The translations under genes were made by a program, and so were the position numbers. From Heyndrickxia coagulans 36D1 (GTDB lineage Bacteria > Bacillota > Bacilli > Bacillales > Bacillaceae_C): DNA of 64,000 nt. The notes under the pieces were generated by a model. The model saw nothing but the letters and a program-made list of their open reading frames with translations, was not told where the DNA came from and did no database searches. The stretch lies in assembly GCF_000169195.2 (NCBI RefSeq), contig NC_016023.1:1860001-1924000 (forward strand), given 5' to 3'. Shown one piece after another: positions 23,370 through 50,587 of this stretch. Position 1 is the first letter of the stretch, and every line of letters begins with the position of its first letter.

Positions 23370-23373
23370 AGAA

Positions 23374-23844
23374 ATGGTTCTGCACCCTCCCAATAACGAA
23401 CATATAGATGATGACATGGTTAAGATGGAGGCAAATCTTGATGATATTCCGGGTGAATGGCTTGGTTATGTTATGGATTTACTTTTTGAAGCCGGGGCAA
23501 ATGATGTGTTCTATACGCCTATTTATATGAAAAAGAATCGGCCTGGCATACTTGTCCAGCTGTTGACTTCCCGAAGTAAAATAGATAGGATGAAAAGAAT
23601 TTTATTTAAAGAAACAACAACACTGGGGATAAGATATTATCCAATTACTGTTCACAGACTCCAGAGGAAGTTTGAAAAAGTGGAGACGATTTGGGGATCT
23701 ATTACAGTAAAAGTGGGATATTATCAAGGAAAACCTGTTCAAAAAGCTCCTGAGTATGAAGAGTGCAAATTAATAGCGCAGCAACACAAAGTTTCTTTAA
23801 AGCAAGTGTATGAGAAAGTATGGGAGAAAATAAATGATGTTTAG
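23374..23844 (+). CDS. larC: LarC2, C-terminal part of the NPN nickel insertase
   Basis: 156 residues. Family landmarks: ANLDDIPGEWLGYVMDLLFEAGANDVFYTPIYMKKNRPG and TLGIRYYPITVHRLQRKFE. ATG 23374 follows GGGGAG at 23361-23366, so independent translation is also possible. The upstream in-frame codons from 23362 (GGG AGT AAA GAA ATG) are open, which is what a +1 shift out of larC1 would read. LarC1/LarC2 splitting with programmed frameshifting has been reported for lactobacilli. Here it could equally be two polypeptides that assemble. A strong terminator follows. Confidence 0.9.
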   Translation: MVLHPPNNEHIDDDMVKMEANLDDIPGEWLGYVMDLLFEAGANDVFYTPIYMKKNRPGILVQLLTSRSKIDRMKRILFKETTTLGIRYYPITVHRLQRKFEKVETIWGSITVKVGYYQGKPVQKAPEYEECKLIAQQHKVSLKQVYEKVWEKINDV

Positions 23845-23857
23845 AACAAAGATTAGG

Positions 23858-23894
23858 AAAAGCGGATAAAGAGTTCGAACTTTATCCGCTTTTT
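23858..23894 (+). terminator. Strong terminator after larC2
   Basis: The 14-base perfect stem AAAAGCGGATAAAG (23858-23871) pairs with CTTTATCCGCTTTT, has an 8-base loop and ends in T5. It separates larBC from the permease unit. Confidence 0.85.
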
Positions 23895-24568
23895 GTGTGT
23901 TTGTATGCCAAATACTAGTGGCTGAAAGCCCATATCAGGGGATATAGCGTTCATCTATAATTACTATGAAGGGCTAAAATTAAATATGAATTTCATTTAA
24001 ACTCAGTTTTTTTCCTTTTATACTCTTGTTACCTTTGATTGCTCCAGTACTTCCTGCTCGTTCGCCACCCACTCCTCAAGTTCCCAAAAAATATCCGTGT
24101 CCACTCTTTTTCGGTAATCTGCAGCAAAAAGTATCATCAGCTATGAATGTTGCTGCTGGAAGTTTCGCTTTCATCTTTGACATGAACTTTGTCAAATCAA
24201 ATGTGTGAAACTTCTATATTTGGGATTCAGCTGAAATGTTTATTGGATTCCTCGAGTTGAAAAAACAAGTCGGTTTTGTGCGGAAAGAGCGGGTAAATCA
24301 AGATGGAAATCATGATCGCAGGGACAAGCTCTGTATAATTTTGTCCAGACTCCAACAGGCAAGAGAAGAGTTTTTCCCAATAATAAAGTACCCGTTCCAG
24401 CATATTGTGCTTATTCTTTCGTAGTTGAATGTATAAACGAGGACATCTCAAGCAGGATGCTTTGCCGTCCAGATTAAACTTTGTTTTGGGTGGCCGAAAA
24501 GGTCAAGGTAGGGTATGACCAATTAAACGCGTTGTTGAAAAAATAAACACAAATTTATAGATGCGGGG
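23895..24568. other. Gap containing decayed coding DNA
   Basis: No intact gene. It holds the Rpn-family remnant listed separately. Around 24040-24180 the minus strand reads protein-like (IFWELEEWVANEQEVLEQ) but is interrupted by stops; this may be more of the same decayed gene. Confidence 0.4.
24227..24451 (-). pseudogene. Remnant of an Rpn-family PD-(D/E)XK nuclease/transposase gene
   Basis: The minus-strand reading contains RVLYYWEKLFSCLLESGQNY and ILIYPLFPHKTD, which match the middle of Rpn/PDDEXK_2 proteins (tyrosine-rich segment, then INILDFxLF). Start, catalytic core and tail are missing. It is a different lineage from the Rpn pair at 48-51 kb. Confidence 0.5.
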
Positions 24569-24611
24569 TTGACAACAATACAGCAAACAGTTTAAAATGA
24601 TAGCGTTAACA
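24569..24611 (+). promoter_or_regulatory. Sigma-A promoter overlapped by a cre site, upstream of the GntP permease
   Basis: TTGACA at 24569-24574, an 18-base spacer and TAAAAT at 24593-24598. TGATAGCGTTAACA at 24598-24611 fits the CcpA cre consensus TGWAARCGYTWNCW at 13 of 14 positions. The operator starts at the last base of the -10, a position suited to catabolite repression. Confidence 0.65.
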
Positions 24612-24614
24612 CTC

Positions 24615-24630
24615 TGATGCAAATAACAAC
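24615..24630 (+). promoter_or_regulatory. Motif A upstream of the permease (shared with the kinase operon)
   Basis: TGATGCAAATAACAAC occurs here and, identically, at 29531-29546, each followed by an ATTAATA-like run. A TTGCAA half-site follows at 24680-24685. It is likely a binding site for the PrpR-like regulator encoded in the island. Confidence 0.5.
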
Positions 24631-24995
24631 ATTAATAAGCTTTAATATCCTAAACTATACGATGCCTGAATAAAATATGTTGCAATATAGATTTGGGGAT
24701 TATGATGGTTTTGAGGGATTATATATAAAATTAACTAATTATTACGACCCAATTATTAAGTCGTAATAACCAAGGCAGTTTTGACTACTGATGAATTAAA
24801 TTTGAAATTGTAAAAAGTAAAGTTAAATTGTAAAAAGCAAAGTAAATGTAATGCAGGTTGTTACTTTTGCTATGTTTTGTAAGCATTTACATTTATATAA
24901 GTAATAAACTGTAATCGTATCCATCATAAAAATCCTCAAATCCCTTTATAAAGCAGCATTTTTAATAAAACTAATATAAAAAAAGGAGGGGCATT

Positions 24996-26342
24996 ATGCC
25001 TTTAGTAATTATCGCAGTTGGAGTACTGTTATTAATCATTTTAATTATGCGCTTCAAATTAAACACTTTTGCATCATTGATTATTGTATCATTTATCATT
25101 GCCTTATTGTTAGGAATTCCAATCAAAAATGTTATCACCTCAATTGAAAATGGTTTAGGAGGGACGCTTGGCCATATTGGGATTATTTTTGGCCTGGGCG
25201 CTATGCTTGGGCGCATTATCGCAGATGCTGGCGGAGCTCAGCGTATTGCCGATACGTTAATCAGTAAATTTGGCCAAAAAAGAATCCAATGGGCTATCTT
25301 AATTGCATCGTTTATATGTGGAATCGCACTTTTCCTTGAAGTGACCATTGTATTATTGATACCAATTATTTTTTCAATAGCAAAAGAATTAAGAGTCTCC
25401 ATTGTTAAATTGGGTCTACCAATGGTTACTGCTGCTTTATCAGCTCATGCTTTTTTGCCTCCTCATCCTGGCCCGATCGCTGTGGCTTCTGAGTACCACG
25501 CCAATGTTGGGATGATGCTTTTATATGGAATTATTATTGCAATCCCCACCTGCTTGATAGCAGGCATTTGGTACCCAAAGATTGCCCAAAAAATTGTTCC
25601 GACTGCGTTCACACGTGAAGGAAGTGAGGCATTCGGAGTGCAAAAAACTTTTAAATTAGAAGAAACGCCTGGATTTGGGATTAGCGTATTTACAGCCTTA
25701 TTTCCTGTCATATTAATGGCTGCCGGGGCTGTTATGGACATGATCCAGCCTGCTGTAGGATTTAAAGATAACTGGCTTGTCCAGACAATCCGGTTAATTA
25801 CAAACTCTGATACTGCTATGATCATTTCCGTGTTGTTTGCAGTCTATACAATGGGACTCAGAAGGAATATCCCAATGAAACAAGTAATGGATTCTTGTTC
25901 TTCAGCTGTAAATAATTTAGGAATGTTGATATTAATTATCGGAGGTGGCGGTGCACTTAAACAAGTAATTGTGGATGGGGGAGTAGGGGATTATGTTGCT
26001 AAGCTATTTGAAGGTACTCATATGTCTCCAATTCTTTTTGCGTGGATAGTTGCAGCATTATTGCGTGTTTGCCTTGGATCTGGAACTGTTGCGACTTTAA
26101 CAACTCCAGCCTTAGTGCTTCCTCTTTTGGCGACTATTCCAAATGTAAACATTGAATTGGTCGCACTTGCTACGGGAGCAGGCAGCGCCATTGCATCGCA
26201 TGTTAATGATGCCGGATTCTGGATGGTTAAAGAATCTTTGGGGATGAATATGAAAGAAGCATTTGGCACGTATACTGTTCTTTCAACAATAGTCGGAATT
26301 TCCGGGTTGGTATGTACTTTACTACTAGATATCATTCTATAA
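24996..26342 (+). CDS. GntP-family acid sugar:H+ symporter
   Basis: 448 residues from ATG 24996, after AAAGGAGGGG. About 12 membrane helices. GntP features: LGALGRI-like GLGAMLGRIIADAGGAQRIA (about 66-85), HAFLPPHPGP (about 150) and GGGGALKQVIVDGGVG. Members import gluconate and related aldonates. Neighbouring four-carbon acid sugar enzymes point to threonate, erythronate or a relative as substrate. It has its own promoter with cre site and its own terminator, so it is a single-gene unit between the two lar segments. Confidence 0.9.
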   Translation: MPLVIIAVGVLLLIILIMRFKLNTFASLIIVSFIIALLLGIPIKNVITSIENGLGGTLGHIGIIFGLGAMLGRIIADAGGAQRIADTLISKFGQKRIQWAILIASFICGIALFLEVTIVLLIPIIFSIAKELRVSIVKLGLPMVTAALSAHAFLPPHPGPIAVASEYHANVGMMLLYGIIIAIPTCLIAGIWYPKIAQKIVPTAFTREGSEAFGVQKTFKLEETPGFGISVFTALFPVILMAAGAVMDMIQPAVGFKDNWLVQTIRLITNSDTAMIISVLFAVYTMGLRRNIPMKQVMDSCSSAVNNLGMLILIIGGGGALKQVIVDGGVGDYVAKLFEGTHMSPILFAWIVAALLRVCLGSGTVATLTTPALVLPLLATIPNVNIELVALATGAGSAIASHVNDAGFWMVKESLGMNMKEAFGTYTVLSTIVGISGLVCTLLLDIIL

Positions 26343-26351
26343 TGTTAGCAG

Positions 26352-26382
26352 AAGGGGTCATTTTAAAATGGTCCCTTTTTTT
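26352..26382 (+). terminator. Terminator after the GntP permease
   Basis: AAGGGGTCATTTT pairs (two wobble positions) with AAAATGGTCCCTT and is followed by seven T. Confidence 0.75.
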
Positions 26383-26742
26383 ATATAAATCTATAAATAC
26401 TCTTTTTAAAAAGGCAGAGACTTACAGTATTAAAAATTCACAGTTTAAAAAACATAATTGCCTATGTAATTTGTTGCTCTTTGTTTAACGTTCAGCCAGT
26501 TTTGTAAGCTTATATTATCCAGATTGAGGCTAAAATAATAGCACTTATAACAATGGAGAGGATCAATATATTTCTGAATACAAAAACTCATTTGTCGAAA
26601 TCACAGGGAGTGTCCCTCCAGTCTTTCTTTGGGTGTCTTATTAATACTATTATTCAAGACTGGGGAAGTTCTAGAACCTTAGGTGCAAAGGACTATGAAA
26701 TCTATTTACATTGTATTATTTAAAATTTTATGAGGTCAAGGG
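26383..26742. other. AT-rich intergenic stretch upstream of larE
   Basis: No coding frame or clear RNA is visible in these 360 bases. Confidence 0.4.
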
Positions 26743-26802
26743 AGTAAACGCTTTAATTTTTATGGATATTCACCTATAATAAATATGTGTTGCAAAATGC
26801 AA
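26743..26802 (+). promoter_or_regulatory. larE promoter region: cre-like site, -10 box and TTGCA palindrome
   Basis: A cre-like sequence AGTAAACGCTTTAA (26743-26756, two mismatches) overlaps a weak -35 (TTTAAT, 26752-26757), which is 17 bases from TATAAT (26775-26780). The palindrome TTGCA-AAA-TGCAA lies at 26790-26802, near the expected transcription start. The same 13-mer recurs at 29581-29593. Confidence 0.5.
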
Positions 26803-26883
26803 AGATTTTTTAAATGGAAATTGAAGATCAATGCCATAGCGATAGTTGGAACTAGATAATAAATCATAATGGGGGGAATTACC

Positions 26884-27693
26884 ATGTATGAAAAGTATGA
26901 TCGGCTGAAACAAATCCTTAAGGAAATGGATAGTGTAGTGGTAGCATTTTCCGGAGGGGTAGACAGCACCTTTTTATTGAAGGTAGCAGTAGATGTTTTA
27001 GGGGCTGATAAGGTTTTGGCTGTTACTGCTGATTCAGAAACCTATCCTTCAACTGAATTGGAGGAGGCAAAAAAGCTGGCTGCACTTATTGGAGCAAGGC
27101 ATCAGGTTATTAAGACATCGGAATTGAGTATACCAGGTTATGCCAAAAATGACTGGAATCGCTGTTACTTTTGCAAAAATGGATTATTTGAAGAAATTTT
27201 GCCAATCATGAACCAAAAAGGATTTCGAAATGTAGTGTATGGTCTAATTGCTGATGACATGGGGGAACACCGTCCGGGAATACGTGCGGCTAAAGAACAT
27301 GGAGTACGTGGCCCACTCCAGGAAGCCAATCTTTATAAAGAAGAAATTCGTAAATTGTCCAAAGAACTAGGCCTGCCTACCTGGGAAAAACCATCTTTCG
27401 CCTGTTTATCTTCACGTATTGCTTATGGTGAGAGAATTACAAAAGAAAAACTCACAAAAGTTGAAAAATCAGAAGCATATCTTAAACTATTAGGAGTCCG
27501 ACAGGTACGGGTTCGCACGCATGAAAATATTGCTAGAATTGAGGTGGAACCAAAGGACATGCCAATTGTCTTGGATCACCACCAAGAAATTTTGGAAAAT
27601 CTCCAGAAATATGGGTATAAATTTGTTACACTGGATCTGCAAGGCTATAAAAGCGGAAGTATGAATAAGATGATAGAAACGAAGCAGAAATAA
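26884..27693 (+). CDS. larE: LarE, ATP-dependent sulfur transferase of NPN cofactor synthesis
   Basis: 269 residues from ATG 26884, after GGGGGAATT. The PP-loop FSGGVDSTFLLK is at 22-33. LarE adenylates the pincer precursor's carboxylates and converts them to thiocarboxylates. Some LarE proteins sacrifice one cysteine; others carry three and use a [4Fe-4S] cluster for sulfur transfer. This one has Cys94 and Cys97 (RCYFCK) plus Cys174 (FACLSSRIAYGERI), the three-cysteine pattern. It is first gene of a unit with the regulator, separated from larBC by the permease. Confidence 0.92.
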   Translation: MYEKYDRLKQILKEMDSVVVAFSGGVDSTFLLKVAVDVLGADKVLAVTADSETYPSTELEEAKKLAALIGARHQVIKTSELSIPGYAKNDWNRCYFCKNGLFEEILPIMNQKGFRNVVYGLIADDMGEHRPGIRAAKEHGVRGPLQEANLYKEEIRKLSKELGLPTWEKPSFACLSSRIAYGERITKEKLTKVEKSEAYLKLLGVRQVRVRTHENIARIEVEPKDMPIVLDHHQEILENLQKYGYKFVTLDLQGYKSGSMNKMIETKQK

Positions 27694-27720
27694 TTCATAA
27701 AGGGATGAAAGGATTGGAAT

Positions 27721-29502
27721 ATGAAGGAAAAAAAGATTAAGGCATTGGTTATTGTTCCTTACGAGGGACTATATGAAATGATGAAAGAAGTTCAGAGAGA
27801 GGTAGGAGATTTTCATTTCGATATTGAATTAGGAAACTTATTTGAAGGGGTAGCTTTAGCGAAAGAAGCAGAAAATAAGGGTTATCATGTCATTATTAGC
27901 CGGGGCGGTACAGCCTCTATGATTCAGGAAGCAGTATCCATCCCGGTGATCGATATCCGGGTGTCCGGTTATGATATTTTGCGAATTATAACACTTGTAA
28001 AAGGATTTTCCCGTAAAGCTGCAATTGTAGGATTCTCAAATATTACACAAGGAGCCTCCACAGTTTCCCAGCTTCTTGATTTGGATATTGAAACTATGAC
28101 GATTACAAAGGGTACTGAGGTTAATGAAAAATTACTCTACTTAAAAAGTCGTGGTTATGAAGTTGTAATCGGGGACGTAGTTACATTTCAGGCAGCAAAG
28201 AAATTAGGGATGACAGGAGTCCTGATTACATCTGGAAAAGAAGCGATTATGGAAGCATTGGAAGAGGCAAGAAGATCTTATCGCATCTTCTCAAAGCTCC
28301 AGCAGCAAGTTTCTTTATTCCAATTTGTTCTTGACTGCAACCGCGAGGCGATCGGGATCTTTAATAAAGAAAAGAAAATTGTTTATGCGAATCAACGTTT
28401 TAATAAAGAGTTTCATTGGATGACAGTGGAGAGTTCTGAAGAAATTAAGAAGCTGATTCAGGAAACTGTTGTTGCAGGGGAAAGTCAAATGAGGACAGTT
28501 CACCTTAACAAGTCGTTATGGAATATTACAGCATGCCCACAAGAAGATACTATCGTACTACTTTTTGAATTAGGTAAAGCAATTCAAACATCTAAGGAAG
28601 AAGGCAACATCGGCCGAAATGCAATAGAATTCCATACATCCATATCGTATATTCCTATTGCGGGAAAGAGTGCCGGAATTCAAGAGGTCCAGCAGCAAGT
28701 CGCTGAATATTCCAAGAGCGAGCAGCCTGTATGGATTTGCGGAGAAAAAGGGGTTGGAAAGGATACAGCAGCACGTTTACTTTATACGAAAAGAAGAGCC
28801 GGGACTGAACCCTTTATTGTTATTAACTGCGATACAATAAAGGCTGAACAGCTTAAGGGGCTTAAGGTTGAAGAATTTTTCGATAAATATACCAATGGAA
28901 CCATCTATTTAAAAAACATTGAAAGATTGGATAAAAGCCTGCAAAGGGAGTTCTGTCAAATCTTTAAAAATAAAAATAATAAGCTGAAGTGGCTGGCATC
29001 TTATGAAGGCAAGATAGAAGATAAAATTAAGAAAGGTTTATTTGACCGGGATCTATATCAATTACTTGGGCAATTAAAAATTTGCATCCCACCGCTTAGG
29101 GAGCGCAAAGAAGATATTGAAGATTTGGTGCAAATATTTATTTCTGAGCTGCACCCCAAACATGGAAATCAGGTTGTTGGGGTTAGGCCGGATGGATTAA
29201 AGGAGCTTATCGCTTACGATTGGCCTGGAAATGTAAAACAGCTTAAGCAAGTAATAGAGCAATTGTTTATCCAGGCCAAATCTTTCTATATTGAAAAAGA
29301 TGAAGTAGTAACAGTATTAAAACGATTAAGGGAGTCCGAACAAACGGATAAGACGCTTATTCCAATTGACCTCAGCGGAACTTTAGAGGATATTGAAAAG
29401 CGGATTATCAAAAAAGTTCTTGAGGAAGAAGAATTAAACCAATCGAAGGCGGCCAAACGATTAGGGATAAACCGTTCTACACTGTGGCGCAAGTTAAAAT
29501 AA
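27721..29502 (+). CDS. PrpR-N/PAS/AAA+/Fis-type regulator with a degenerate, probably sigma54-independent, AAA+ domain
   Basis: 593 residues, starting 27 bases after larE. Domains: PrpR_N periplasmic-binding-like sensor about 8-185 (IISRGGTASMIQEAVSIPVIDIRVSGYD); PAS about 195-285; AAA+ about 310-520; Fis-type helix-turn-helix about 550-593 (NQSKAAKRLGINRSTLWRKLK). Walker A is acceptable (GEKGVGKD, 341-348). The GAFTGA loop that contacts sigma54 is missing, and Walker B acidic residues are replaced (IYLKNIE where LFLDEIG is expected). The genes nearby have sigma-A-like promoters, consistent with a sigma54-independent regulator like TyrR. It likely senses an acid sugar or phosphate ester through PrpR_N and binds the TTGCA/TGATGCAAATAACAAC motifs. 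Confidence 0.85.
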   Translation: MKEKKIKALVIVPYEGLYEMMKEVQREVGDFHFDIELGNLFEGVALAKEAENKGYHVIISRGGTASMIQEAVSIPVIDIRVSGYDILRIITLVKGFSRKAAIVGFSNITQGASTVSQLLDLDIETMTITKGTEVNEKLLYLKSRGYEVVIGDVVTFQAAKKLGMTGVLITSGKEAIMEALEEARRSYRIFSKLQQQVSLFQFVLDCNREAIGIFNKEKKIVYANQRFNKEFHWMTVESSEEIKKLIQETVVAGESQMRTVHLNKSLWNITACPQEDTIVLLFELGKAIQTSKEEGNIGRNAIEFHTSISYIPIAGKSAGIQEVQQQVAEYSKSEQPVWICGEKGVGKDTAARLLYTKRRAGTEPFIVINCDTIKAEQLKGLKVEEFFDKYTNGTIYLKNIERLDKSLQREFCQIFKNKNNKLKWLASYEGKIEDKIKKGLFDRDLYQLLGQLKICIPPLRERKEDIEDLVQIFISELHPKHGNQVVGVRPDGLKELIAYDWPGNVKQLKQVIEQLFIQAKSFYIEKDEVVTVLKRLRESEQTDKTLIPIDLSGTLEDIEKRIIKKVLEEEELNQSKAAKRLGINRSTLWRKLK

Positions 29503-29530
29503 TGCTTGCGCTTTTTTTAAACTGTATTCA

Positions 29531-29593
29531 TGATGCAAATAACAACAATTAATACATTTATATTATTTTTAAAAAATGTATTGCAAAATGCAA
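29531..29593 (+). promoter_or_regulatory. Upstream control region of the kinase operon: motif A plus TTGCA palindrome
   Basis: Motif A TGATGCAAATAACAAC (29531-29546) is identical to the one before the permease. Thirty-four bases later lies TTGCA-AAA-TGCAA (29581-29593), identical to the one before larE. A weak cre-like sequence follows (29619-29632, two mismatches) near TATATT. Confidence 0.5.
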
Positions 29594-29732
29594 CTTTTTG
29601 TTTTAATATTGATGTTGTTGGAAGCGTTTTATATTAATAAAATTATATAGGGAGCAGGATAGAAACGGTTTGAATAATTGGATGGATTGCACACCCGCTA
29701 ATCAGTTGATAAAAGATAGGGGAGGGTTGCAA

Positions 29733-31058
29733 GTGAAACTGGCGGTTATAGCAGATGATTTAACAGGTGCCAATGATACGGGCGTGCAATTTGCGAAACA
29801 AGGATTTCGTACGGTCGTATTATTTGCCGGAACGCAATTACAGCCTCTCCATTTAAATGAAGATGTTGTTGTGATGAATTCAGATAGCCGTGGTTTAGAG
29901 CAGGAAGAAGCATATGAAGCCGTTTTTAAAATTGCCATGCACTCAAGAAAACTCGGCGTTTCTAAGATCTTTAAGAAAATTGATTCAACAATGCGGGGAA
30001 ATATTGGATTGGAAATTGATGCTGTAATGGACGCTTTCCAATTTGAGACGGCTTTTATCGTACCGGCTTTTCCGAAAAGCGACAGGATAACAATAGGTGG
30101 GTATCATTTTGTTAATGGTGTTCTAATTGAAAATACGGAACTTGCCCAGGATCCTGTTTGCCCTGTGAATGAAAGCTATCTTCCAACTTTGCTTCAATCT
30201 CAGAGCAAACGGAAGGTTGAATTGCTTTCAATTTCTGATGTAAGAAAAGGAAAAAAACATTTATCAGAATTAATGAATAAGTTAGCGTCGGAAAAAATAC
30301 CGAAATTGATTGTTGTGGATGCTACAACAGATTCAGAATTAAAGATGATTGTAGAAGCTACCAGAAATTTAGAAAATGATTTTCTTTGGGCTGGGTCTGC
30401 AGGAATTGCATATCATCTTTTTGATACCGGCCAGGCGGAAGAGGAATTAGGGAAGGCGGAGATTAAGGACCGTCCGCCGGTACTGGCAGTGGCTGGCAGT
30501 GTTAATTCTATTATTGATCATCAAATCCGAAATTTAAAAGAAAAACATCATGTTGAAGAAATAGTACTTTCTCCTGAAGAGTTTTTTTACGAAGATAGAA
30601 AAAAAAGGGAAATAGAAAACGTTGTAACAATTGGGCAGGATCTTTTGAAAAAGGGTGATTTAGTCGTAACGACCAATCGCGAACGGGAAGCGATCTGTAG
30701 AGTGAAGGAATTGCAGCGGCGGTTCGGATTATCAAATTTTGATGTTGGCCAGACTATTGCCAAATCTATAGGCATGATTGCAGCCCGATTAATAGGAAGC
30801 GTGCCAGTTTGTGGAGTAATCCTTACAGGGGGGGATATTGCCGGGGCGACATGTAAAGTTTTAAAAGGTGACGGTATACGAGTAATTGGCGAAGTAGAAG
30901 CCGGTATTCCTTATGGGAAATTGTTTGGAGGCCCTTATGACGGAATGCCAATTGTCACAAAAGCCGGTGCGTTTGGAACTGCACAGGCGCTTTCCAAATC
31001 CTTGCAGACTATTACTCAAGTTTACGCACTTGATGACAAAAACAAATTGACTCAATAA
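29733..31058 (+). CDS. DUF1537 four-carbon acid sugar kinase (threonate/erythronate kinase)
   Basis: GTG 29733 is the start (AGGGGAGGG 10 bases upstream); 441 residues. The N-terminal substrate domain opens with LAVIADDLTGANDTG and contains KKIDSTMRGN. The C-terminal nucleotide domain has LWAGSAGIAYHL, ILTGGDIAGATC and GGPYDGMPIVTKAGAFG. DUF1537 enzymes phosphorylate D-threonate, D-erythronate or 3-oxo-tetronates at O4. The adjoining pdxA2-type gene favours the branch in which a 4-phospho-acid is oxidised directly. Exact substrate unproven. Confidence 0.9.
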   Translation: MKLAVIADDLTGANDTGVQFAKQGFRTVVLFAGTQLQPLHLNEDVVVMNSDSRGLEQEEAYEAVFKIAMHSRKLGVSKIFKKIDSTMRGNIGLEIDAVMDAFQFETAFIVPAFPKSDRITIGGYHFVNGVLIENTELAQDPVCPVNESYLPTLLQSQSKRKVELLSISDVRKGKKHLSELMNKLASEKIPKLIVVDATTDSELKMIVEATRNLENDFLWAGSAGIAYHLFDTGQAEEELGKAEIKDRPPVLAVAGSVNSIIDHQIRNLKEKHHVEEIVLSPEEFFYEDRKKREIENVVTIGQDLLKKGDLVVTTNREREAICRVKELQRRFGLSNFDVGQTIAKSIGMIAARLIGSVPVCGVILTGGDIAGATCKVLKGDGIRVIGEVEAGIPYGKLFGGPYDGMPIVTKAGAFGTAQALSKSLQTITQVYALDDKNKLTQ

Positions 31059-31127
31059 TTTTCATTTTTTAAAGTATGTAACAAGTATGGCTGAAATCAA
31101 TAAATGATAAAGTGGGAGGAATTAAAA

Positions 31128-32132
31128 ATGGCAGCAAATAAACCAGTTATCGCAATTACAATGGGAGATCCTTCAGGTGTAGGGCCTGAAATTATTGCAA
31201 AATCATTAAGCGATGAGGAAATTTACGAAAGATGCCAACCATTTGTAGTTGGCGATTTAAAAATTTTAAAAAGAGCGCTAGCGGTAACGGGGTGTAATCT
31301 CCATTTAAATAGTATTTCCAGTCCGGAAGAGGGTAAGTATCAATCAGGTACTATCGATATTATTGACTTGGACTTAGTATCTGAAAACTTGCCGTGGGGG
31401 CAGGTTTCCCCTGAGGCTGGCAATGCTGCATTCCATTATTTGGAAAAAGCAATAACATATGCCAATGAAGGAAGAATCCAAGGAATTTGTACAGCACCAT
31501 TAAATAAAGAAGCAATCCATAAAGCAGGTCATATATATCCAGGACATACGGAAATTCTTGCAGAATTAACTAATACAAAAGATTTTGCCATGATGCTGAC
31601 GGCTCCAGGTTTAAGGGTTATTCATGTCACAACCCATATTGGTTTGATTGATGCGATTCAAAGTATTACTGTAGATCGGGAATACACAGTTATTAGGCTT
31701 GCCCATGAAACCTTGAAAAAAGCGGGAATTGAATCTCCTAAAATAGCAGTTTGCGGTATTAACCCTCATGCCGGAGAAAATGGGTTGTTTGGCCATGGAG
31801 AGGAAGAAGAGAAAATTATACCTGCTGTTGAAAAAGCAAGATCGGAGGGGATCAATGTTGAAGGACCGCTTCCAGCTGATACACTATTCTTTAGGGCAAG
31901 ACGAGGAGACTTTGATATTGTTGTAGCCCAATATCACGATCAGGGGCATGGGCCAATTAAAGTACTGGGCCTGGAAGCTGGAGTTAATATTACGGTAGGG
32001 CTTCCAATCATTCGTACAAGTGTGGATCATGGAACAGCTTTTGATATCGCCGGAAAAAATATAGCCGACGAGTTGTCCTTAAAGGAAGCAATTCGTATGG
32101 CGATTGAATTGGCGCCTAAAACTTTGGAATAA
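31128..32132 (+). CDS. pdxA2: PdxA2-type 4-phospho-D-threonate/erythronate 3-dehydrogenase
   Basis: 334 residues from ATG 31128, with GGGAGGAATT. PdxA fold: ITMGDPSGVGPEI (15-27), GHTEILAELT, HVTTHIGLIDAI, NPHAGENGLFG and YHDQGHGPIK supply the metal- and substrate-binding His/Asp residues. Outside vitamin B6 synthesis, PdxA2 paralogues sit next to DUF1537 kinases. They oxidise the 4-phosphorylated acid sugar, whose 3-keto product loses CO2 to give dihydroxyacetone phosphate. Genomic position argues for this role rather than pyridoxal synthesis. Confidence 0.9.
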   Translation: MAANKPVIAITMGDPSGVGPEIIAKSLSDEEIYERCQPFVVGDLKILKRALAVTGCNLHLNSISSPEEGKYQSGTIDIIDLDLVSENLPWGQVSPEAGNAAFHYLEKAITYANEGRIQGICTAPLNKEAIHKAGHIYPGHTEILAELTNTKDFAMMLTAPGLRVIHVTTHIGLIDAIQSITVDREYTVIRLAHETLKKAGIESPKIAVCGINPHAGENGLFGHGEEEEKIIPAVEKARSEGINVEGPLPADTLFFRARRGDFDIVVAQYHDQGHGPIKVLGLEAGVNITVGLPIIRTSVDHGTAFDIAGKNIADELSLKEAIRMAIELAPKTLE

Positions 32133-32239
32133 ATAAATCAATATAAAAAGAAAAGGGCCATAATAAAGCAGTCTTTTTGTGATTTCTATTGCTGGTCGAG
32201 AGAAACTAACCATAAAAGGTATTGGGAGGGAATAGCATA

Positions 32240-33490
32240 ATGTCATTTCCTAAATTAGCAAAGATAAAGCAGACGTTTCAAGCAGAGAGCTTAAAGGATA
32301 TTCCCGGCACAATTAAAGATGAGTTCATACGCGTAAATGCAGATAAAAAAATAAAACCTGGTATGGAAATTGCCATTACTGCAGGAAGCCGAGGAATTGC
32401 TAATATTCCTTTAATCGTTAAAAGTGTCGCGGATGAAATTAAAAAAAGGGGGGCAAAGCCTTTCGTCATCCCAGCTATGGGAAGCCACGGGGGAGCTACG
32501 GCTGATGGACAAGTTGAGGTATTGAAGGGTTTAGGGATAACCGAGGAATTCACCGGCTGTGAAATCCGCTCTTCTATGGATGCTGTGGAGGTTGGAGTAA
32601 CATCAGCCGGAATTCCTGTCTATGTTGATAAAAATGCTTATAATGCTGATGGAATTATCGTAATGGGCCGTGTGAAGCCACATACTGATTTTAAAAATAA
32701 AATTGAAAGCGGTATTTTAAAAATGGCTTCAATAGGTATGGGCAAGCATAAACAGGCCTTAGCTTTACACACGTATGGAATAAAGGGAATCAGTGAAATG
32801 ATGCCCGAAGTCGGTAAAATTGCCATCCGTAAATCCAATGTACTGTTCGGAATAGCCATTGTGGAAAATGCTTATGATGAAACAGCTATTATTGAAGCTT
32901 TGGAGCCCACACGGATTGAAGAAAGAGAAAAGGAATTATTGCAAAAAGCATTTTCTTTAATGCCAAGCCTCCCAGTCAATGATATTGATATTTTGGTAGT
33001 TGATGAAATAGGAAAAAATTATAGCGGCACAGGCATGGATACCAATATTATCGGCAGGATACGAGTACTAGGAGTAAAAGAGCCCGAAAAACCGAATATC
33101 AAATACATTATCGCTTCTGATTTGAGTGAGGAGAGCCATGGAAATGCCTTGGGAATCGGACTTGCAGATTTAACGACAAAGCGTTTAGTAGAAAAAATTG
33201 ATTATCAAGCAATGAATGAAAATGTAATTACGAGTACTTTTTTAGACCGGGCAAAAATCCCAATTATCCTTGATAATGACCGGGAAGCATTAAAAGCAGC
33301 TCTACGTGCAAACTGGGGCATAGCTTGGGAAGGGGCAAGAATTGTAAGAATTCCCAATACGCTACATATTGGAGAACTATATGTATCTGAGACTATTTTT
33401 AATGAGCTGAAAAATAAGGAAAATATTGAAGTCTTGGAGCCTTTAAAGGAGATAGATTTTGACGAAGAGGGTTATTTCCGGCCTATGTAA
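32240..33490 (+). CDS. LarA-superfamily nickel-pincer racemase/epimerase (not canonical lactate racemase)
   Basis: 416 residues from ATG 32240, after TTGGGAGGGAATA. The DUF2088 N-terminal domain holds candidate LarA-type functional residues: Arg51 (GSRGIAN), His83 (GSHGGA), His148 (RVKPHTDF), Lys161 in IESGILKM (candidate NPN-linked lysine) and His170 (GMGKHK). Spacing between these differs from L. plantarum LarA, placing it in another branch of the superfamily. Related enzymes racemise or epimerise the C2 hydroxyl of other 2-hydroxyacids. Beside a tetronate kinase and PdxA2 it probably inverts C2 of a four-carbon acid sugar, for example D-erythronate to D-threonate. Confidence 0.82.
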   Translation: MSFPKLAKIKQTFQAESLKDIPGTIKDEFIRVNADKKIKPGMEIAITAGSRGIANIPLIVKSVADEIKKRGAKPFVIPAMGSHGGATADGQVEVLKGLGITEEFTGCEIRSSMDAVEVGVTSAGIPVYVDKNAYNADGIIVMGRVKPHTDFKNKIESGILKMASIGMGKHKQALALHTYGIKGISEMMPEVGKIAIRKSNVLFGIAIVENAYDETAIIEALEPTRIEEREKELLQKAFSLMPSLPVNDIDILVVDEIGKNYSGTGMDTNIIGRIRVLGVKEPEKPNIKYIIASDLSEESHGNALGIGLADLTTKRLVEKIDYQAMNENVITSTFLDRAKIPIILDNDREALKAALRANWGIAWEGARIVRIPNTLHIGELYVSETIFNELKNKENIEVLEPLKEIDFDEEGYFRPM

Positions 33491-33559
33491 AATTTCAACA
33501 TGGGACTGGCAATCTATATACAAGGTTCCCGGTTAGCAGGATGAAAGGAGTGGCATTAA

Positions 33560-34231
33560 ATGGATGTAAGTTTTATATCTGTCCTTGCATTAGGATTTGT
33601 ATTGGGAATTAAACATGCGATTGAACCGGATCATATTATTGCTGTATCTACAATTGCCAGTCGGAGCAAGAAATTGTCTCAGTCATCCCTTGCAGGCGTT
33701 TTTTGGGGGATCGGACATACGGCAACCTTATTTATTGTTGGAATTTGCCTTTTAATTATAAAGGGGGAAATTCCGGAAAAATGGGCTATGTCACTTGAAT
33801 TTCTTGTTGGAATTATGCTGGTTTATCTTGGCATTACAACGTTGACTGCATTTAAAAGGGTACGTATACATCATCATTATCACGAACCGGGTCATAAACA
33901 CCCATCCGAAAACTATTCTTACATCAAATCAGTGTGTATCGGGCTTGTACATGGACTTGCCGGGAGCGGGGCAATGGTACTGCTTACAATGAGTACCGTT
34001 AAAAGCGTTTTCGAATCAGCTATTTATATTTTGATATTTGGAATTGGAACTATATTCGGCATGCTTTTCTTTACAACTATTCTAGGTATCCCGTTTATCA
34101 TAAGCGCTAAAAGAGTAGAGGCAAATAAGACGCTTACGCAAATCACTGGAGCCATCAGTACGGTATTTGGTATCTATTATATGTACAACTTAGGGATAGG
34201 AGAAGGATTGTTTAAGATGTGGCTGCAATAA
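33560..34231 (+). CDS. Nickel permease, NicO/UreH-like family
   Basis: 223 residues with about six membrane helices. The metal-recognition signature HAIEPDH is at 19-25 in helix 1, followed by WGIGHTATLF, a His-rich cytosolic loop (HHHYHEPGHKH, about 95-105) and LVHGLAGSGAM. Related UreH/NicO/HupE proteins carry Ni2+ (or Co2+) across the membrane. As the last gene after the LarA homologue it most simply supplies nickel for the cofactor. ATG 33560 follows GAAAGGAGTGG. Confidence 0.82.
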   Translation: MDVSFISVLALGFVLGIKHAIEPDHIIAVSTIASRSKKLSQSSLAGVFWGIGHTATLFIVGICLLIIKGEIPEKWAMSLEFLVGIMLVYLGITTLTAFKRVRIHHHYHEPGHKHPSENYSYIKSVCIGLVHGLAGSGAMVLLTMSTVKSVFESAIYILIFGIGTIFGMLFFTTILGIPFIISAKRVEANKTLTQITGAISTVFGIYYMYNLGIGEGLFKMWLQ

Positions 34232-34785: not shown

Positions 34786-34794
34786 TGCTATAAT
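34786..34794 (+). promoter_or_regulatory. Extended -10 promoter of the ketosynthase-like gene
   Basis: TGC-TATAAT, an extended -10 with a perfect hexamer at 34789-34794, lies 34 bases upstream of the ATG. The -35 region is poor. Confidence 0.5.
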
Positions 34795-34827: not shown

Positions 34828-36027
34828 ATGAAAATAGTATGTACCGGATACGGGATATTTGCGCCAAATACGAGGAACATTGATCAGTATTTGTTTAATT
34901 TGAAAAACGGCGTTTGCACATTACAAGTGGCGGAGGGCATGGGGCCAAAAGGAGAATCAACCATTGCCGGGCTTATCCAGGATGAAGAATTGAAACAAAT
35001 AGAAGCAGATGATAAACTAAAGCGCCTCCCAAAAGTAACAAAAATGGGGACCGCTGCAGTGAAAGAAGCAATCGCGTCTTCCAGGCTGGATGTCCGGCAT
35101 AAAAAAGTAGGCTTGTTTTTCGGATTATCCCTTGGTGCTACGGGAGAGAAACTGTACCAGGATTCCATTCACTACGCTAATCATGAACTGTATCGAAAAG
35201 TATCGCTCATATTCTCCCACTATGCGAATTACCATAGTATTACGGCTGCCATTGGCCATTATATTGGGGCCAGGGGCGTCGAAAAAACGATTACAACAGG
35301 TTGCACTTCCAGTTTGGAAGCAGTAGAAGATGCAATCCTTTACTTGAAAAGCGGAAAAGTGGATGCGGCCATTGTCGGCGGAACGGACAGCCCGATATGC
35401 AATGCGACAACTTATGCGTTTGCCAAAACAAAAACGATACCGCTTAACCAAACGCTTGAAGAAGGCGCTGTGCCGTTTCAAAAAGGAAGTAAAGGGTTTG
35501 CAATGTCGGAAGCGGCAGGGGCAATCGTGCTGGAGAGGGAAGAAGATGCCGTTCAACGAAAAGCGGATATAAAAGGCGAAATCGTTGATGTCGTTTCCAA
35601 TAATGATGGGATCAACATTTTTTCATTGGACGGATCCGGGGACCAAATGTTAAACGCGTTAAAAGAAGTCACAATGGGAAGAAAACCGGATTACATCAAC
35701 AGCCAGGCACTTGGCATTGAACTGAACGACCAAATCGAGCAGCACTGTTCCAAACAGTTGTTTAACCATGAAGTTCCCTATACTTCAATCAAAAGCATGT
35801 ATGGGAACCCTTTTGGCGCCATTGGTATTTTGCAAGTCATTTCATCGCTTTTAAGCATGCAATATGGCTTTATCCCGCCAACGATTCGGACAACGAGGCG
35901 CGGGTATGAAGAAATGAATATTGTAACAGAGACCCTCTATCGGGAGATTCATGAAGTGGCCATCACCAACCATGGATTTGGCGGCAATAACGCATGTGCC
36001 TATATGAAGAAATACACCAAGAGTTAG
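34828..36027 (+). CDS. Beta-ketoacyl synthase-like protein with Cys-Gln-Asn in place of Cys-His-His
   Basis: 399 residues from ATG 34828 (GGTGGGG upstream; the frame runs further up without a ribosome site). It has a FabF-type thiolase fold: MKIVCTGYGIFAPNT at the start, the nucleophile elbow TTGCTSS with Cys159, and NHGFGGNNA near the end. Both catalytic histidines are substituted: the His of the NAHGT-type motif is Gln293 (YINSQALGIELND), and the His of the KSMxGH motif is Asn327 (IKSMYGNPFG). It may therefore not decarboxylate malonyl units and could act as an acyltransferase or priming-type enzyme. It lies 23 bases before an orphan histidine kinase, with no acyl carrier protein or other synthase genes nearby. 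Confidence 0.8.
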   Translation: MKIVCTGYGIFAPNTRNIDQYLFNLKNGVCTLQVAEGMGPKGESTIAGLIQDEELKQIEADDKLKRLPKVTKMGTAAVKEAIASSRLDVRHKKVGLFFGLSLGATGEKLYQDSIHYANHELYRKVSLIFSHYANYHSITAAIGHYIGARGVEKTITTGCTSSLEAVEDAILYLKSGKVDAAIVGGTDSPICNATTYAFAKTKTIPLNQTLEEGAVPFQKGSKGFAMSEAAGAIVLEREEDAVQRKADIKGEIVDVVSNNDGINIFSLDGSGDQMLNALKEVTMGRKPDYINSQALGIELNDQIEQHCSKQLFNHEVPYTSIKSMYGNPFGAIGILQVISSLLSMQYGFIPPTIRTTRRGYEEMNIVTETLYREIHEVAITNHGFGGNNACAYMKKYTKS

Positions 36028-36050
36028 AAAGGGGATGAGGTACTATCGTT

Positions 36051-37481
36051 ATGGGGGTATTGATTTTTACGATAGGATTCATTCCGATTGTCCTGGCCGT
36101 GAGTATGCAATCACTTTATAAAGAGTCAAAGCTGTCTCTGATATTGGGATTCTATATGCTTTTGATCACGGCCTGGCAATTCGATATAGGCGTCCTTTTT
36201 CTCGGAAAAGTATTAAGCAAGGAAACGATCCTTGTTCTTTTCAAATTTCTTCGGGGCGGGACGACTTTTTCCATACCGGTTGTCTATTACATTGCTTTTT
36301 CTATCATAAAAGGCCAGCCGGCACTTCTGGCAGGACGGAAATGGCTGGACAAACTATCGAATGTTTTACTCAATAAAAAGGTTTTATATTTTTTGATTTT
36401 CTGGAGTACGGTTATTTATTTTATAAACTGGACAAGTTTAGGTACAAAAGGCTTGTATATGGCGAATAAAAATGGGGCAAATACCCTCTTTTTATTTCCT
36501 GAATACGGGCCGCTGATCTGGCTATATATTTTACATATGGGCAGCTTCTTACTGTTTTTAATCCTTATATTCATGATGACCAAAGGAATGGTAAACCAAA
36601 ATATCAAAAGATTCCTGGCCAGGTTTAGCCTGTATTCCCTGCTTTTATACATATTCGGTTTTTTAAACTTTTCTCCTGGAACCGGTGGTATTTCCAGCAG
36701 TATCGGGGTTATCATTTTCTCAACCTTGATCGTCATGGAGTTCATAAAATTAGGCGCAAATATAAAGGCAAACTATTATGAAATAATGGAAAGGCAGATG
36801 AAATTGGACTACACCGGCAACTTAGCCGGAAGTCTGATTCATGAAGTGAAAAATGCGAATCAAATCATTAAGGGCTTTTCCCAAATGTTAAATGCAAGCG
36901 CTGGTATGGATAAAAAAGATAAAGCTTATTTAAATATGATAGAAAAAACTTCTGAGCATTTAGATGACTTAGTAGATAACTACAAGACCTATTTGAAATC
37001 ATCTTCCACCACTTTTAAGAAAGAAAATCTGGAATCGATCATCAGGGAGTCTCTTGCGTTTTCCCAAGCCATTTTAACAGAACATCATATCGAAGTTGAA
37101 CTGCTGAATTGTTATCATTCCCTTGATGCGTACGTAAATAAAGCAAATTTGAAACAAGTTTTTATCAATCTTATTAAGAATAGCATAGAGGCGATTCCCG
37201 AAGATAGAAAGGACAAAAGGATTGCGATCCGGATTGAAGTGGACCAGGAAATGATTATGATCCATTTTAAAGATACTGGCACAGGGATTGGGCGGGAACA
37301 CTGGGAAAGTGTTTTTAACCCTTTTTTGTCATTGAAACCTGAAGGAATGGGATTAGGCTTGCCTTATGTGAAAAAGATTATCATTGAGCATCTCGGCAAT
37401 ATCCGGATCGTTGAAAGTTCAGCGGAAGGAACCCATTTCCAAATTGAGATTCCACAAAACGGGATATTAAACATGGACTAG
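36051..37481 (+). CDS. Membrane sensor histidine kinase without a nearby response regulator
   Basis: 476 residues. About seven hydrophobic helices (residues 1-240) precede a short linker and a kinase core. H-box LIHEVKN with phospho-acceptor His264; N-box INLIKNSIEAI; G1 DTGTGIG; G2 GMGLGLP. The sensor resembles multi-helix membrane sensors (general 7TM layout as in ComP/AgrC-like kinases), though I cannot assign it to a named sensor family. No receiver gene is adjacent. Tight coupling to the ketosynthase-like gene suggests that protein's product, or its activity, is linked to the sensed signal. Confidence 0.85.
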   Translation: MGVLIFTIGFIPIVLAVSMQSLYKESKLSLILGFYMLLITAWQFDIGVLFLGKVLSKETILVLFKFLRGGTTFSIPVVYYIAFSIIKGQPALLAGRKWLDKLSNVLLNKKVLYFLIFWSTVIYFINWTSLGTKGLYMANKNGANTLFLFPEYGPLIWLYILHMGSFLLFLILIFMMTKGMVNQNIKRFLARFSLYSLLLYIFGFLNFSPGTGGISSSIGVIIFSTLIVMEFIKLGANIKANYYEIMERQMKLDYTGNLAGSLIHEVKNANQIIKGFSQMLNASAGMDKKDKAYLNMIEKTSEHLDDLVDNYKTYLKSSSTTFKKENLESIIRESLAFSQAILTEHHIEVELLNCYHSLDAYVNKANLKQVFINLIKNSIEAIPEDRKDKRIAIRIEVDQEMIMIHFKDTGTGIGREHWESVFNPFLSLKPEGMGLGLPYVKKIIIEHLGNIRIVESSAEGTHFQIEIPQNGILNMD

Positions 37482-43746: not shown

Positions 43747-45162
43747 ATGGATATTATATCAATAATTGCTGGATTATTAAAGGATACAAAGAGTCTTATC
43801 GAATTTGAAGAACAGCTTAAACTTCTGATGCAGAAGGCTTTTACACAATGGGTTGGGGAAATATTTGAAGAGTTAGATAAAATAATTAAACAGGAGAAGT
43901 TAGAGGAGGGCTGGGTGTACTGCCGGAGTGATAACAGAAACATTCAGTTTCTATTTGGAAGTGTGACCTTTAAACGTTCATTAATGCATGACAAGAGAGG
44001 AAATTCCCATTATCCTCTGGATGAATGGTTAGGGCTGGTACCACACCAACGATACAGCCCGTTAGTGGAATTAAAGGTGGCAGAGTTGGCAAGTGAGAAC
44101 ACCTATCGGGAAGTAGCTGATATTTTAAAAGAGTGGACAGCAGTGAGTCTTAGTCACACAACTGTAGGGAACATGGTAAAACACGTAGGGAAAACTCAGG
44201 CGGAAGCCGATAAGGCACTTGTAGAAGAGCTAGAAATAGCTGTTTCCCTGCCTGAGGGGAAGAAGGTAGACTACCTGTTTTCTGAAGCAGATGGTGTATT
44301 CGTTCGGGGACTAAAAAAGAAACAGAGTATGGAAGTCCACCACGCCATTCTCTATGAGGGATGGCAAACCAATGGTAAAAGGGTCTCCCTGCGTCAGCCC
44401 ACAGTCATCATGACAACGGAAGCCATCCAGACATTTTGGGATGAAGTCCAAGCCACAGCTGCCAACACCTACTCCCTCGAAAAAACGCATGTCATTACAA
44501 ACAGTGATGGAGGTGCGGGATACACAGCTGAACGGTTTCAAACAGCTTTCTCACAGTCGGAATTTCCGGTGCTCAACCAGCTGGATACCTACCACGTTGC
44601 ACAAGCCATCATAAGGACATTTGGGGGCGGAAAGAGCGAGATCAAGGAGCAAATTAGAAAAGCGATTAGAACGCATGACCTGGACCAACTCACGTTATAT
44701 TTGGATACGCACGAAAGCACCTTGACGGATAAAAAGGCTCTCAAGAAAATCAAGGAATTCCGTTCGTATATCTTGAAAAACTGGGACCGCATTTTTGACT
44801 GGAGAGACAGGGTGAAAAACGTGCCGGAAGGTGCGAGAGGCCTAGGAGCGATGGAATCGAATCAAAGGCATATCTCCTTCAGGATGAAAAAAAGGGGCAT
44901 GCATTGGAGTGAACTTGGCGCAGAAGCCATGGTGAAAATCAAACAAGGCATACTCAATGGGACATTGAGAGAAGTCTATCTGAAACACCGTTCAAGAAGC
45001 GAGAGAAAGCAACGGAACTTGAAACAATTCATCAGGATGTCTCAACTGCTCAAGCAGCCTGTACGCCCGTCAGTGGGCGTAAAGCACGGATCAGTTGCCC
45101 TGCATTCAAGCAGTTCATCGGCAATGGGACATTTAAGCAAAATATTAGAGCTTTCGTTTTAA
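43747..45162 (+). CDS. ISLre2-family transposase (UPF0236), copy 2
   Basis: 471 residues, the same length as the copy-1 product and differing at a few dozen positions, almost all in the N-terminal 240 residues. The last about 230 residues are nearly identical. Candidate acidic residues in SEADG and NSDGG are preserved. The uneven divergence suggests partial gene conversion between copies. Confidence 0.9.
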   Translation: MDIISIIAGLLKDTKSLIEFEEQLKLLMQKAFTQWVGEIFEELDKIIKQEKLEEGWVYCRSDNRNIQFLFGSVTFKRSLMHDKRGNSHYPLDEWLGLVPHQRYSPLVELKVAELASENTYREVADILKEWTAVSLSHTTVGNMVKHVGKTQAEADKALVEELEIAVSLPEGKKVDYLFSEADGVFVRGLKKKQSMEVHHAILYEGWQTNGKRVSLRQPTVIMTTEAIQTFWDEVQATAANTYSLEKTHVITNSDGGAGYTAERFQTAFSQSEFPVLNQLDTYHVAQAIIRTFGGGKSEIKEQIRKAIRTHDLDQLTLYLDTHESTLTDKKALKKIKEFRSYILKNWDRIFDWRDRVKNVPEGARGLGAMESNQRHISFRMKKRGMHWSELGAEAMVKIKQGILNGTLREVYLKHRSRSERKQRNLKQFIRMSQLLKQPVRPSVGVKHGSVALHSSSSSAMGHLSKILELSF

Positions 45163-48397: not shown

Positions 48398-48429
48398 AAA
48401 ACTGAAAAATAAGAAAAGGAGTGCTGCCA

Positions 48430-49419
48430 TTGGAACTTGTAATGGAAAAACATGCCGGTTATCACGTGCATGACCGTTTGTTTAAGGAGCTGATCCAAAA
48501 CTTTTTTCAGGAGTTTATGGATGCCTTTTTCCCGGATCTTTCAGCGGATCTCGACTACCGCCGGGTGCGGTTTTTGTCGCAGGAACAGTTTACGGACTTT
48601 CCGGGCGGTGAGCAAAAACGGGTTGACATCCTCGCCGAAACGAAGGTAAAAGGGAAAGACACCGTGATTCTCATCCATGTTGAGCCGCAGTCGTATTACG
48701 AAAAGCCTTTTCCTGAACGCATGTTTCGTTATTACATGATGATCAGTCTCCGGCACCGGAAACCGGTATTGCCGATTGCCGTTTTCAGTTATGAGGAGAA
48801 AACAGAGACCCCTGATACGTACACCTTTGCGTTCCACAACATTGAAATTCTTCGTTTTCACTATTTATCCATTCATCTGATGAAACAAAATTGGAGAAAT
48901 TATATCCGGAGCAACAACCCTGTTGCCGCGGCATTATTAAGCAAAATGGGGTATACAGAAACAGAACGGGTGCAGGTCAAACTGGAGTTTCTGCGGATGC
49001 TGGCCCGGATGGAACTCGACCCTGCAAAAATGAGGCTGTTACACGGTTTCTTTGATTATTATTTAAAATTGAACGAAAAAGAGGAGGCGGAAGTAATGGA
49101 AAACATTAAAATGCTGGATCCGGACGAAGCAGAGCAAGTATTGAAATTGCCGAATTCCTATTTTGACCGCGGGTATAAGAAGGGGAAAGAGGAAGGCAGA
49201 GAAGAAGGAATTGAAATAGGAGTAGAGAAGGGAAGAGAAGAAGGAATTGAAATAGGAGTAGAGAAGGGGAGAGAAGAAGAGAGAAAAGAAATGTTACAAA
49301 CGATCCCAATTGCCATCAAAATGTTGCAGGAGGGTAGGGAGCTTCAATTAATTGTGGAAAAAACTGGCCTGAGCCAGAGAGAAGTGGAAAAAATAAAACA
49401 ACAATTGGAGCATTCATAA
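48430..49419 (+). CDS. Rpn-family PD-(D/E)XK nuclease, copy 1
   Basis: 329 residues. TTG 48430 lies 8 bases after AAAAGGAG, whose last G is base 48421, so the GTG there cannot be the start. The nuclease core has Asp66 (RVDILAE), Glu85 and Gln87 (HVEPQS), the D-ExQ arrangement of Rpn/PDDEXK_2 proteins. From about 240 the chain becomes a Lys/Glu/Gly-rich repeat tail (REEGIEIGVEKG twice), ending in a small helical domain (LIVEKTGLSQREVEKIKQQL). E. coli Rpn nucleases are toxic antiphage proteins inhibited by a short form translated from an internal start. Here AGGAGG (49082-49087) and ATG 49096 provide exactly such a site. Confidence 0.85.
   Translation: MELVMEKHAGYHVHDRLFKELIQNFFQEFMDAFFPDLSADLDYRRVRFLSQEQFTDFPGGEQKRVDILAETKVKGKDTVILIHVEPQSYYEKPFPERMFRYYMMISLRHRKPVLPIAVFSYEEKTETPDTYTFAFHNIEILRFHYLSIHLMKQNWRNYIRSNNPVAAALLSKMGYTETERVQVKLEFLRMLARMELDPAKMRLLHGFFDYYLKLNEKEEAEVMENIKMLDPDEAEQVLKLPNSYFDRGYKKGKEEGREEGIEIGVEKGREEGIEIGVEKGREEERKEMLQTIPIAIKMLQEGRELQLIVEKTGLSQREVEKIKQQLEHS
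49096..49419 (+). CDS. Internal short form of Rpn copy 1 (candidate intragenic antitoxin)
   Basis: In-frame ATG 49096 is 8 bases after GAGGAGGCGG, a stronger ribosome site than that of the full gene. The product would be 107 residues: MENIKMLDPDEAEQVLKLPN, the repeat tail and the C-terminal helical domain, without the nuclease core. The layout matches the RpnS short proteins known from E. coli. Inference from site strength and family precedent. Confidence 0.55.
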   Translation: MENIKMLDPDEAEQVLKLPNSYFDRGYKKGKEEGREEGIEIGVEKGREEGIEIGVEKGREEERKEMLQTIPIAIKMLQEGRELQLIVEKTGLSQREVEKIKQQLEHS

Positions 49420-50555: not shown

Positions 50556-50587
50556 AAAACTGAAAAATAAGAAAAGGAGTGCTGCCA

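Follow-up and report, generated by a model that had tools for sequence, protein, structure and literature searches.

Why does a ketosynthase homologue with an altered active site lie directly in front of a membrane histidine kinase? The window, the 64,000-nucleotide stretch of Heyndrickxia coagulans 36D1 that we analysed (bases 1860001-1924000 of a 3.55-Mb genome that consists of one contig), raises this question at 34828..36027 (+). There, an ATG at 34828 opens a gene for a 399-aa FabF-like ketosynthase homologue (KS), whose stop codon ends at 36027; the mechanical ORF opens farther 5', at 34651. The second gene (36051..37481 (+)) follows after 23 bp and encodes a 476-aa membrane histidine kinase. 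A possible, weak extended -10 element, TGCTATAAT at 34786..34794 (+), was read by eye 5' of the KS gene. A promoter pattern scan gave no excess over shuffles, and the element was not among its matches. The KS is a stand-alone ORF, not surrounded by PKS genes, and no response regulator lies beside the kinase within the window.

Positions 21793-34231 of the window hold what looks like a lactate-racemase-type nickel-pincer cluster. Its genes resemble those for LarB, a split LarC (22545-23369, 23374-23844), a permease, LarE, a sigma-54-type activator, a sugar-acid kinase, and PdxA-like, LarA-like and nickel-transporter-like proteins. Two near-identical 471-aa transposase-like ORFs on opposite strands, 19670-21085 (-) and 43747-45162 (+), bracket the region holding the KS and the kinase. 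Further near-identical ORF pairs occur at 48421-49419 and 50579-51481, and at 58580-59698 and 60254-61366; the last pair resembles TnpB-type transposon proteins.

The KS matched Pfam families PF00109 (1.7e-28) and PF02801 (1.5e-15), and Pfam, NCBIfam and an alignment with B. subtilis FabF (4ls5) all placed it in the FabF superfamily. Assignment as FabF was rejected by score, as the KS reached 189 bits against TIGR03150 (FabF), whose cut-off is 493.75 bits, and the KS family formed its own clade, separate from FabF. Only one other protein of the same genome matched the KS at E up to 1e-3, a FabF with 28% identity. The nearest named relative found was Heyndrickxia camelliae, with a KS 75% identical, and a contig search with a single protein as query returned H. 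camelliae as the sole match.

We aligned 44 members of the KS family, 37 from the order and seven from the family of G631, named Paenibacillaceae here. The Cys, Gln, Lys, Asp and Glu positions were invariant (44/44): Cys159 (TGC, 35302-35304 (+)) aligns to the FabF nucleophile C163, Gln293 (CAG, 35704-35706 (+)) substitutes for H303, and Lys322 (35791-35793 (+)) corresponds to K335. At the H340 site, His was found in 37/44 members and Asn in 7/44, the latter being peculiar to the subclade of the window, where Asn327 is encoded by AAC at 35806-35808 (+). The Cys-His-His triad of FabF and other elongating ketosynthases is thus not present. A new histidine, His382 (CAT, 35971-35973 (+)), stands at the FabF gate residue Phe400 and is shared by 40/44 members, the other 4/44 having Gln. 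The KSs with Gln at this gate (L098, L099, L100, L150) belong to a PAS-kinase clade with frequent KS loss. None of the 44 aligned sequences keeps the threonines of the HGTxT motif found in FabF; one has S at the second place. In two plasmid-borne members, the Cys, Gln, Lys and gate His were, by eye, as in the family, and the second-His position was Asn in Virgibacillus and His in Rossellomorea. The first-pass annotation had read Cys159 as retained and Gln293 and Asn327 as replacing the catalytic histidines, which the alignments with B. subtilis FabF and with the FabF of the same genome confirmed; it had missed His382 and the restriction of Asn327 to one subclade.

Two other assignments were also rejected. 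The scores against the NCBIfam models for dialkylresorcinol ketosynthases were far below their cut-offs (DarB, 17.9 vs 550 bits; StlD/DarB, 20.7 vs 450 bits). In a chain length factor (KS-beta) the active-site Cys is replaced and the gene adjoins that of a KS-alpha partner; here the Cys is retained in every member, and just one of 13 loci with long flanks (L038) has a FabF-like gene immediately upstream.

In FabF, the acyl carbonyl is held by H303 and H340, the C163 and F400 backbone forms the oxyanion hole, and acyl probes still crosslink an F400A mutant (PMC7138838). From these facts, acylation of Cys159 is plausible and malonyl condensation is not. The nearest precedent, by analogy, is the KS0 domain, in which the Cys is kept and the first His replaced, as in the KS; transthiolation without condensation has been proposed for such domains (PMC8302727). 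KS0 domains belong to PKS assembly lines, whereas the KS stands alone. The replacement of the HGTxT threonines means that catalysis may be lost. In six close pairs, dN/dS was 0.07-0.17 for the KS and 0.03-0.10 for the sensor; together with the invariant Cys, Gln, Lys, Asp and Glu, these low values argue for a working active site.

Is the arrangement a unit or an accident of one genome? We retrieved the closest homologues among 60 relatives with up to 20 kb of flank. In 13/13 loci, the next gene after the KS gene (broken in L045), in the same orientation, encoded a homologue of the first 240 residues of the kinase, which form its seven-helix sensor domain (36051..36770 (+)). The other genes mostly varied among these loci, close relatives sharing their flanks, and no tailoring gene travelled with the pair. 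A KS profile applied to 397 sampled genomes of the order (E up to 1e-75) gave 32 loci in 30 genomes, all scoring at least 408 bits, and 30 of these 32 KS genes directly preceded a seven-helix sensor. The two that did not are on contig 5 of G087 and in G344, where the sensor is on another contig. With five extra relatives, the order yielded 37 intact KS genes, 35 of them directly before a sensor; measured from mechanical starts, the gaps were -53 to +198 bp, and the genes often overlap or nearly touch. In one further genome, G035, the kinase is intact but the KS ahead of it is broken, and its sensor was counted as solo. The first-pass annotation had named rare neighbourhood elsewhere as what would speak against its reading, and these counts do not refute it.

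Beyond the order, a phylum sample (299 genomes) gave matches at 1e-65 in 155 genomes, nearly all of them ordinary FabF-like proteins. No non-family score there exceeded 260 bits; only the window copy and the Paenibacillaceae member G631 lay higher. Family members score at least 408 bits, apart from a plasmid member, found later, that scored 350 bits with the family motifs present. The plasmid of Virgibacillus halodenitrificans Bac324 carries a KS, a 6-bp gap and a kinase; that of Rossellomorea sp. AcN35-11 carries a KS, a kinase and a receiver-only regulator. Viral contigs contained no relative. In the Rossellomorea plasmid (L246, 7389-8648), the first sensor helices are out of the kinase frame, owing to a frameshift or a late start. 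In H. camelliae (L032, 11213-11300), no in-frame ATG, GTG or TTG occurs where the kinase gene of the window begins.

The distances among KSs agreed closely with those among their sensors in the 35 pairs (Mantel r 0.867; 0/2000 permutations as high), and the agreement also held within each output type. The nearest neighbour of each KS belonged to the same output type in 35/35 cases. The pair is sporadic, being absent from four genomes of the same genus and present on two plasmids, as might be expected of functionally unconnected genes that became neighbours by chance or on one mobile element. Adjacency in 30/32 cases within one order with differing flanks, the congruent distances and the purifying selection on both genes refute chance adjacency, and we regard this explanation as extremely improbable. 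The pairing is almost certainly a real unit.

The dependence within the unit runs one way. The sensor family occurred in 64/397 genomes of the order, including all 30/30 with a KS, and 44 of 79 sensors had no intact adjacent KS. L148 and L149 retain only remnants of the KS 3' end ahead of their intact sensors, L226 likewise has a KS remnant before its sensor, and these remnants show recent loss of the KS; in G035 the KS is broken while the kinase behind it is intact. Repeated KS loss with the sensor kept would fit the pattern expected of a receptor outliving its synthase. A receptor without a synthase, PauR, is described in Photorhabdus (PMC4235431).

Relatives exchange the output of the sensor. 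Among the 79 sensors, 29 were kinases without PAS (10 with KS), 34 PAS-kinases (9 with KS) and 16 PAS-GGDEF-EAL proteins (16 with KS). These types were set by length and GGDEF motif, with representatives confirmed by Pfam, and the set omits the sensor of G072, which is split in two fragments. L098 is a PAS-kinase by length, yet Pfam found no PAS in it. On the sensor tree, output type needs 4 changes and KS presence at least 14.

Solo sensors are common and share their pocket residues with paired ones, which would be expected if a ligand existed without the KS. The sensor might then take a membrane lipid or a fatty acid as a cue on the cell envelope, and the KS, by modifying or removing this molecule, would tune a housekeeping sensor instead of making a message of its own. 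The strict co-inheritance and the pairing of like with like indicate a more dedicated relation, and a KS accompanies every GGDEF-EAL sensor examined (16/16, plus G851 of the Paenibacillaceae). We consider such tuning distinctly unlikely.

The kinase has a HATPase_c domain (residues 365-469, 37143..37457 (+); 65.2 bits vs the Pfam cut-off of 26.4, 9e-18). HisKA scored 18.8 bits, below its cut-off of 26.9; the His box HEVKN is nevertheless there, with His264 (36840..36842 (+)) as the predicted phospho-accepting histidine, and the protein is thus a sensor histidine kinase. A Pfam search gave no family for the sensor part, whose homologues adjoin a KS in 35 loci, and a comparison with solved structures gave no relative, the single match (E 1.7) being meaningless. 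An AlphaFold2 model of the kinase, computed from two sequences (window and H. camelliae), had a mean pLDDT of 44 and agrees only with the presence of about seven long sensor helices. Seven helices with the N-terminus outside also agree with the loop charges of 74 sequences, for which helix limits were set manually: inner loops held 9.7 K/R and 3.5 D/E per sequence, and outer loops 1.7 K/R and 5.0 D/E. The loop charges and the ORF coordinates bear out the earlier description of a seven-helix kinase 23 bases behind the KS.

In the same 74 sequences, which were left after five divergent or truncated rows had been dropped, conservation of the sensor was higher in the outward half than in the inward one (1.92 vs 1.36 bits, p 2.6e-5). 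The outward half, 119/242 positions, contained 21 of the 30 most conserved sensor columns. Conserved residues facing outward were W42, Q43, R68, Y123, P150, G153 and G203. These patterns bear on whether the KS could act from the cytosol, acylated on Cys159 or binding acyl-ACP according to fatty-acid status and setting the output of the seven-helix protein by contact with its inner face, with no diffusible signal. Such a co-sensor would account for an invariant Cys and FabF-like core although the condensing chemistry is lost, for the tight, often overlapping gene order, and for inner loops that are slightly better conserved when the sensor is paired than when it is solo (1.61 vs 1.42 bits). The inner loops are, however, the least conserved part of the sensor, and sensors often outlast KS loss. 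KS divergence tracks the inner and outer sensor halves about equally, so this comparison gives a ligand no preference. Overall, direct contact of this kind seems to us rather unlikely, also in view of the Paenibacillaceae, where a family KS lies beside an unrelated soluble regulator.

A KS was found in 7/148 genomes of the Paenibacillaceae. In G851 the KS is paired with a sensor as usual, and the output has the length of GGDEF-EAL (795 aa); the other six genomes contain no sensor of the seven-helix family. In five of these six (L224, L234-L237), the KS lies tail to tail with a fusion of an alpha/beta-hydrolase and a winged-helix/TPR regulator. Orthologues of this fusion at 66% identity or more occur in six sample genomes, five of them with a KS. 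In the sixth, G840 (L255), the KS is absent at the same place and a flavin-oxidoreductase-like gene lies directly behind the hydrolase-regulator. The link is confined to one genus and so probably represents about one event.

A receiver-only gene directly follows the kinase in L037, L081 and L246. Those of L037 and L081 scored 26.6 and 23.3 bits against a Pfam cut-off of 30.2, and that of L246 is named a response regulator in its record. The term 'orphan', applied earlier to the kinase, therefore fits the window copy but does not hold for the family at large. In its core the kinase is similar to KinB (3d36 in the PDB set, 3.8e-18) and KinD; identity as the sporulation kinase KinD was rejected (116.6 bits vs the NCBIfam cut-off of 775). 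Of the 24 receivers that the genome encodes, three stand alone, with 125-aa open frames, and the phosphate acceptor of the window kinase is plausibly a Spo0F-like, receiver-only protein encoded elsewhere.

We propose that the KS supplies a ligand that the sensor reads from outside or in the outer leaflet, a proposal that we hold to be evenly balanced between right and wrong. An acyl chain from acyl-ACP (or CoA) would be loaded onto Cys159. Normal malonyl condensation would be out of reach because the H303 equivalent is gone, and the KS would hand the chain to another acceptor or release it; His382 would perhaps serve as a base, which is our own inference. The result would be a small hydrophobic ligand that gets to the outer leaflet or the outside, where the outward pocket of the sensor would read it. 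The pocket would thereby set kinase activity, and the kinase would pass phosphate to its regulator.

The two genes are linked and co-inherited, as those of a synthase and its receptor are. The one-way dependence, the KS losses, the outward conservation, the output swapping and the purifying selection would all speak for a ligand, as may, by analogy, the unrelated regulator beside the KS in Paenibacillaceae and the transthiolation precedent. Points that may count against it are the absence of a tailoring gene from the flanks of the 13 loci, the replaced HGTxT threonines, the touching genes, which would also fit a protein complex, the slightly more conserved inner loops of paired sensors, and the regulator of G840 without a KS. 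The first-pass annotation had likewise proposed a ligand maker with its receptor; the one-way dependence, the repeated KS loss and the conserved outward pocket agree with that proposal and support it in part.

If the ligand reading is true, Bacillales possess a lipid-type signalling system that was overlooked because both genes carry dull annotations; the plasmid records of Virgibacillus and Rossellomorea, for instance, name them 'beta-ketoacyl synthase N-terminal-like domain-containing protein' and 'HAMP domain-containing sensor histidine kinase'. Should the KS be a co-sensor, a condensing enzyme would have come to report fatty-acid synthesis directly to a membrane receptor. In either case, the seven-helix domain is a sensor family lacking a Pfam entry, with exchangeable outputs, and the unit is small, two genes in a Bacillus-like genome. 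Its occurrence across many Bacillus-like bacteria with varied outputs suggests an undescribed chemical signalling unit. More tentatively, and with somewhat more doubt than belief, it might be a chemical language of Gram-positive bacteria, the third after peptides and AI-2: an acyl signal from a FabF-derived acyltransferase with a relocated histidine would be read by an undescribed seven-helix receptor domain. This domain would be coupled to histidine kinases (possibly of the sporulation phosphorelay) or to enzymes of c-di-GMP, and many eavesdroppers would have the receptor alone.

A search of the open-access literature by title and abstract start (subscription journals and preprints lie outside its coverage) found no paper on the KS-sensor pair, nor any on the KS family, the sensor domain or their combination. 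Ketosynthase-like synthases with receptors (PpyS/PluR) and a synthase with a membrane kinase (CqsA/CqsS) are already known. The KS shares with FabF (beta-ketoacyl-ACP synthase II) the fold family, the nucleophile Cys, Lys335 and the Asp and Glu positions, but differs in H303 to Gln, H340 to Asn (in the window) and F400 to His, and in its separate clade. It resembles the KS0 domains of trans-AT polyketide synthases in its Cys and replaced first His, the features of the proposed transthiolation (PMC8302727), but is a stand-alone protein beside a sensor. Like KinA-E of the Spo0F phosphorelay, the kinase is a membrane protein with no adjacent DNA-binding regulator and a core like that of KinB (3d36) and KinD; unlike them, it falls far below the KinD cut-off, has a sensor that matches no Pfam family and comes with a KS attached.

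PpyS is a FabH-type enzyme. The PpyS/PluR system of Photorhabdus, which uses photopyrones, likewise joins a ketosynthase-like synthase to a cognate receptor and has a synthase-less counterpart in PauR (PMC4235431). PluR is a soluble LuxR-type regulator, however, and the KS of the window is FabF-like and without the condensing histidines. CqsA, for its part, is a PLP-dependent enzyme, not a ketosynthase. CqsA/CqsS of Vibrio nevertheless offers the likeness of an acyl-thioester-using synthase with a cognate membrane histidine kinase, CqsS, whose transmembrane part reads the chain length of the ligand (PMC3285556). The pair of the window differs from it in a sensor domain without a Pfam family and in outputs that, among its relatives, also include GGDEF-EAL.
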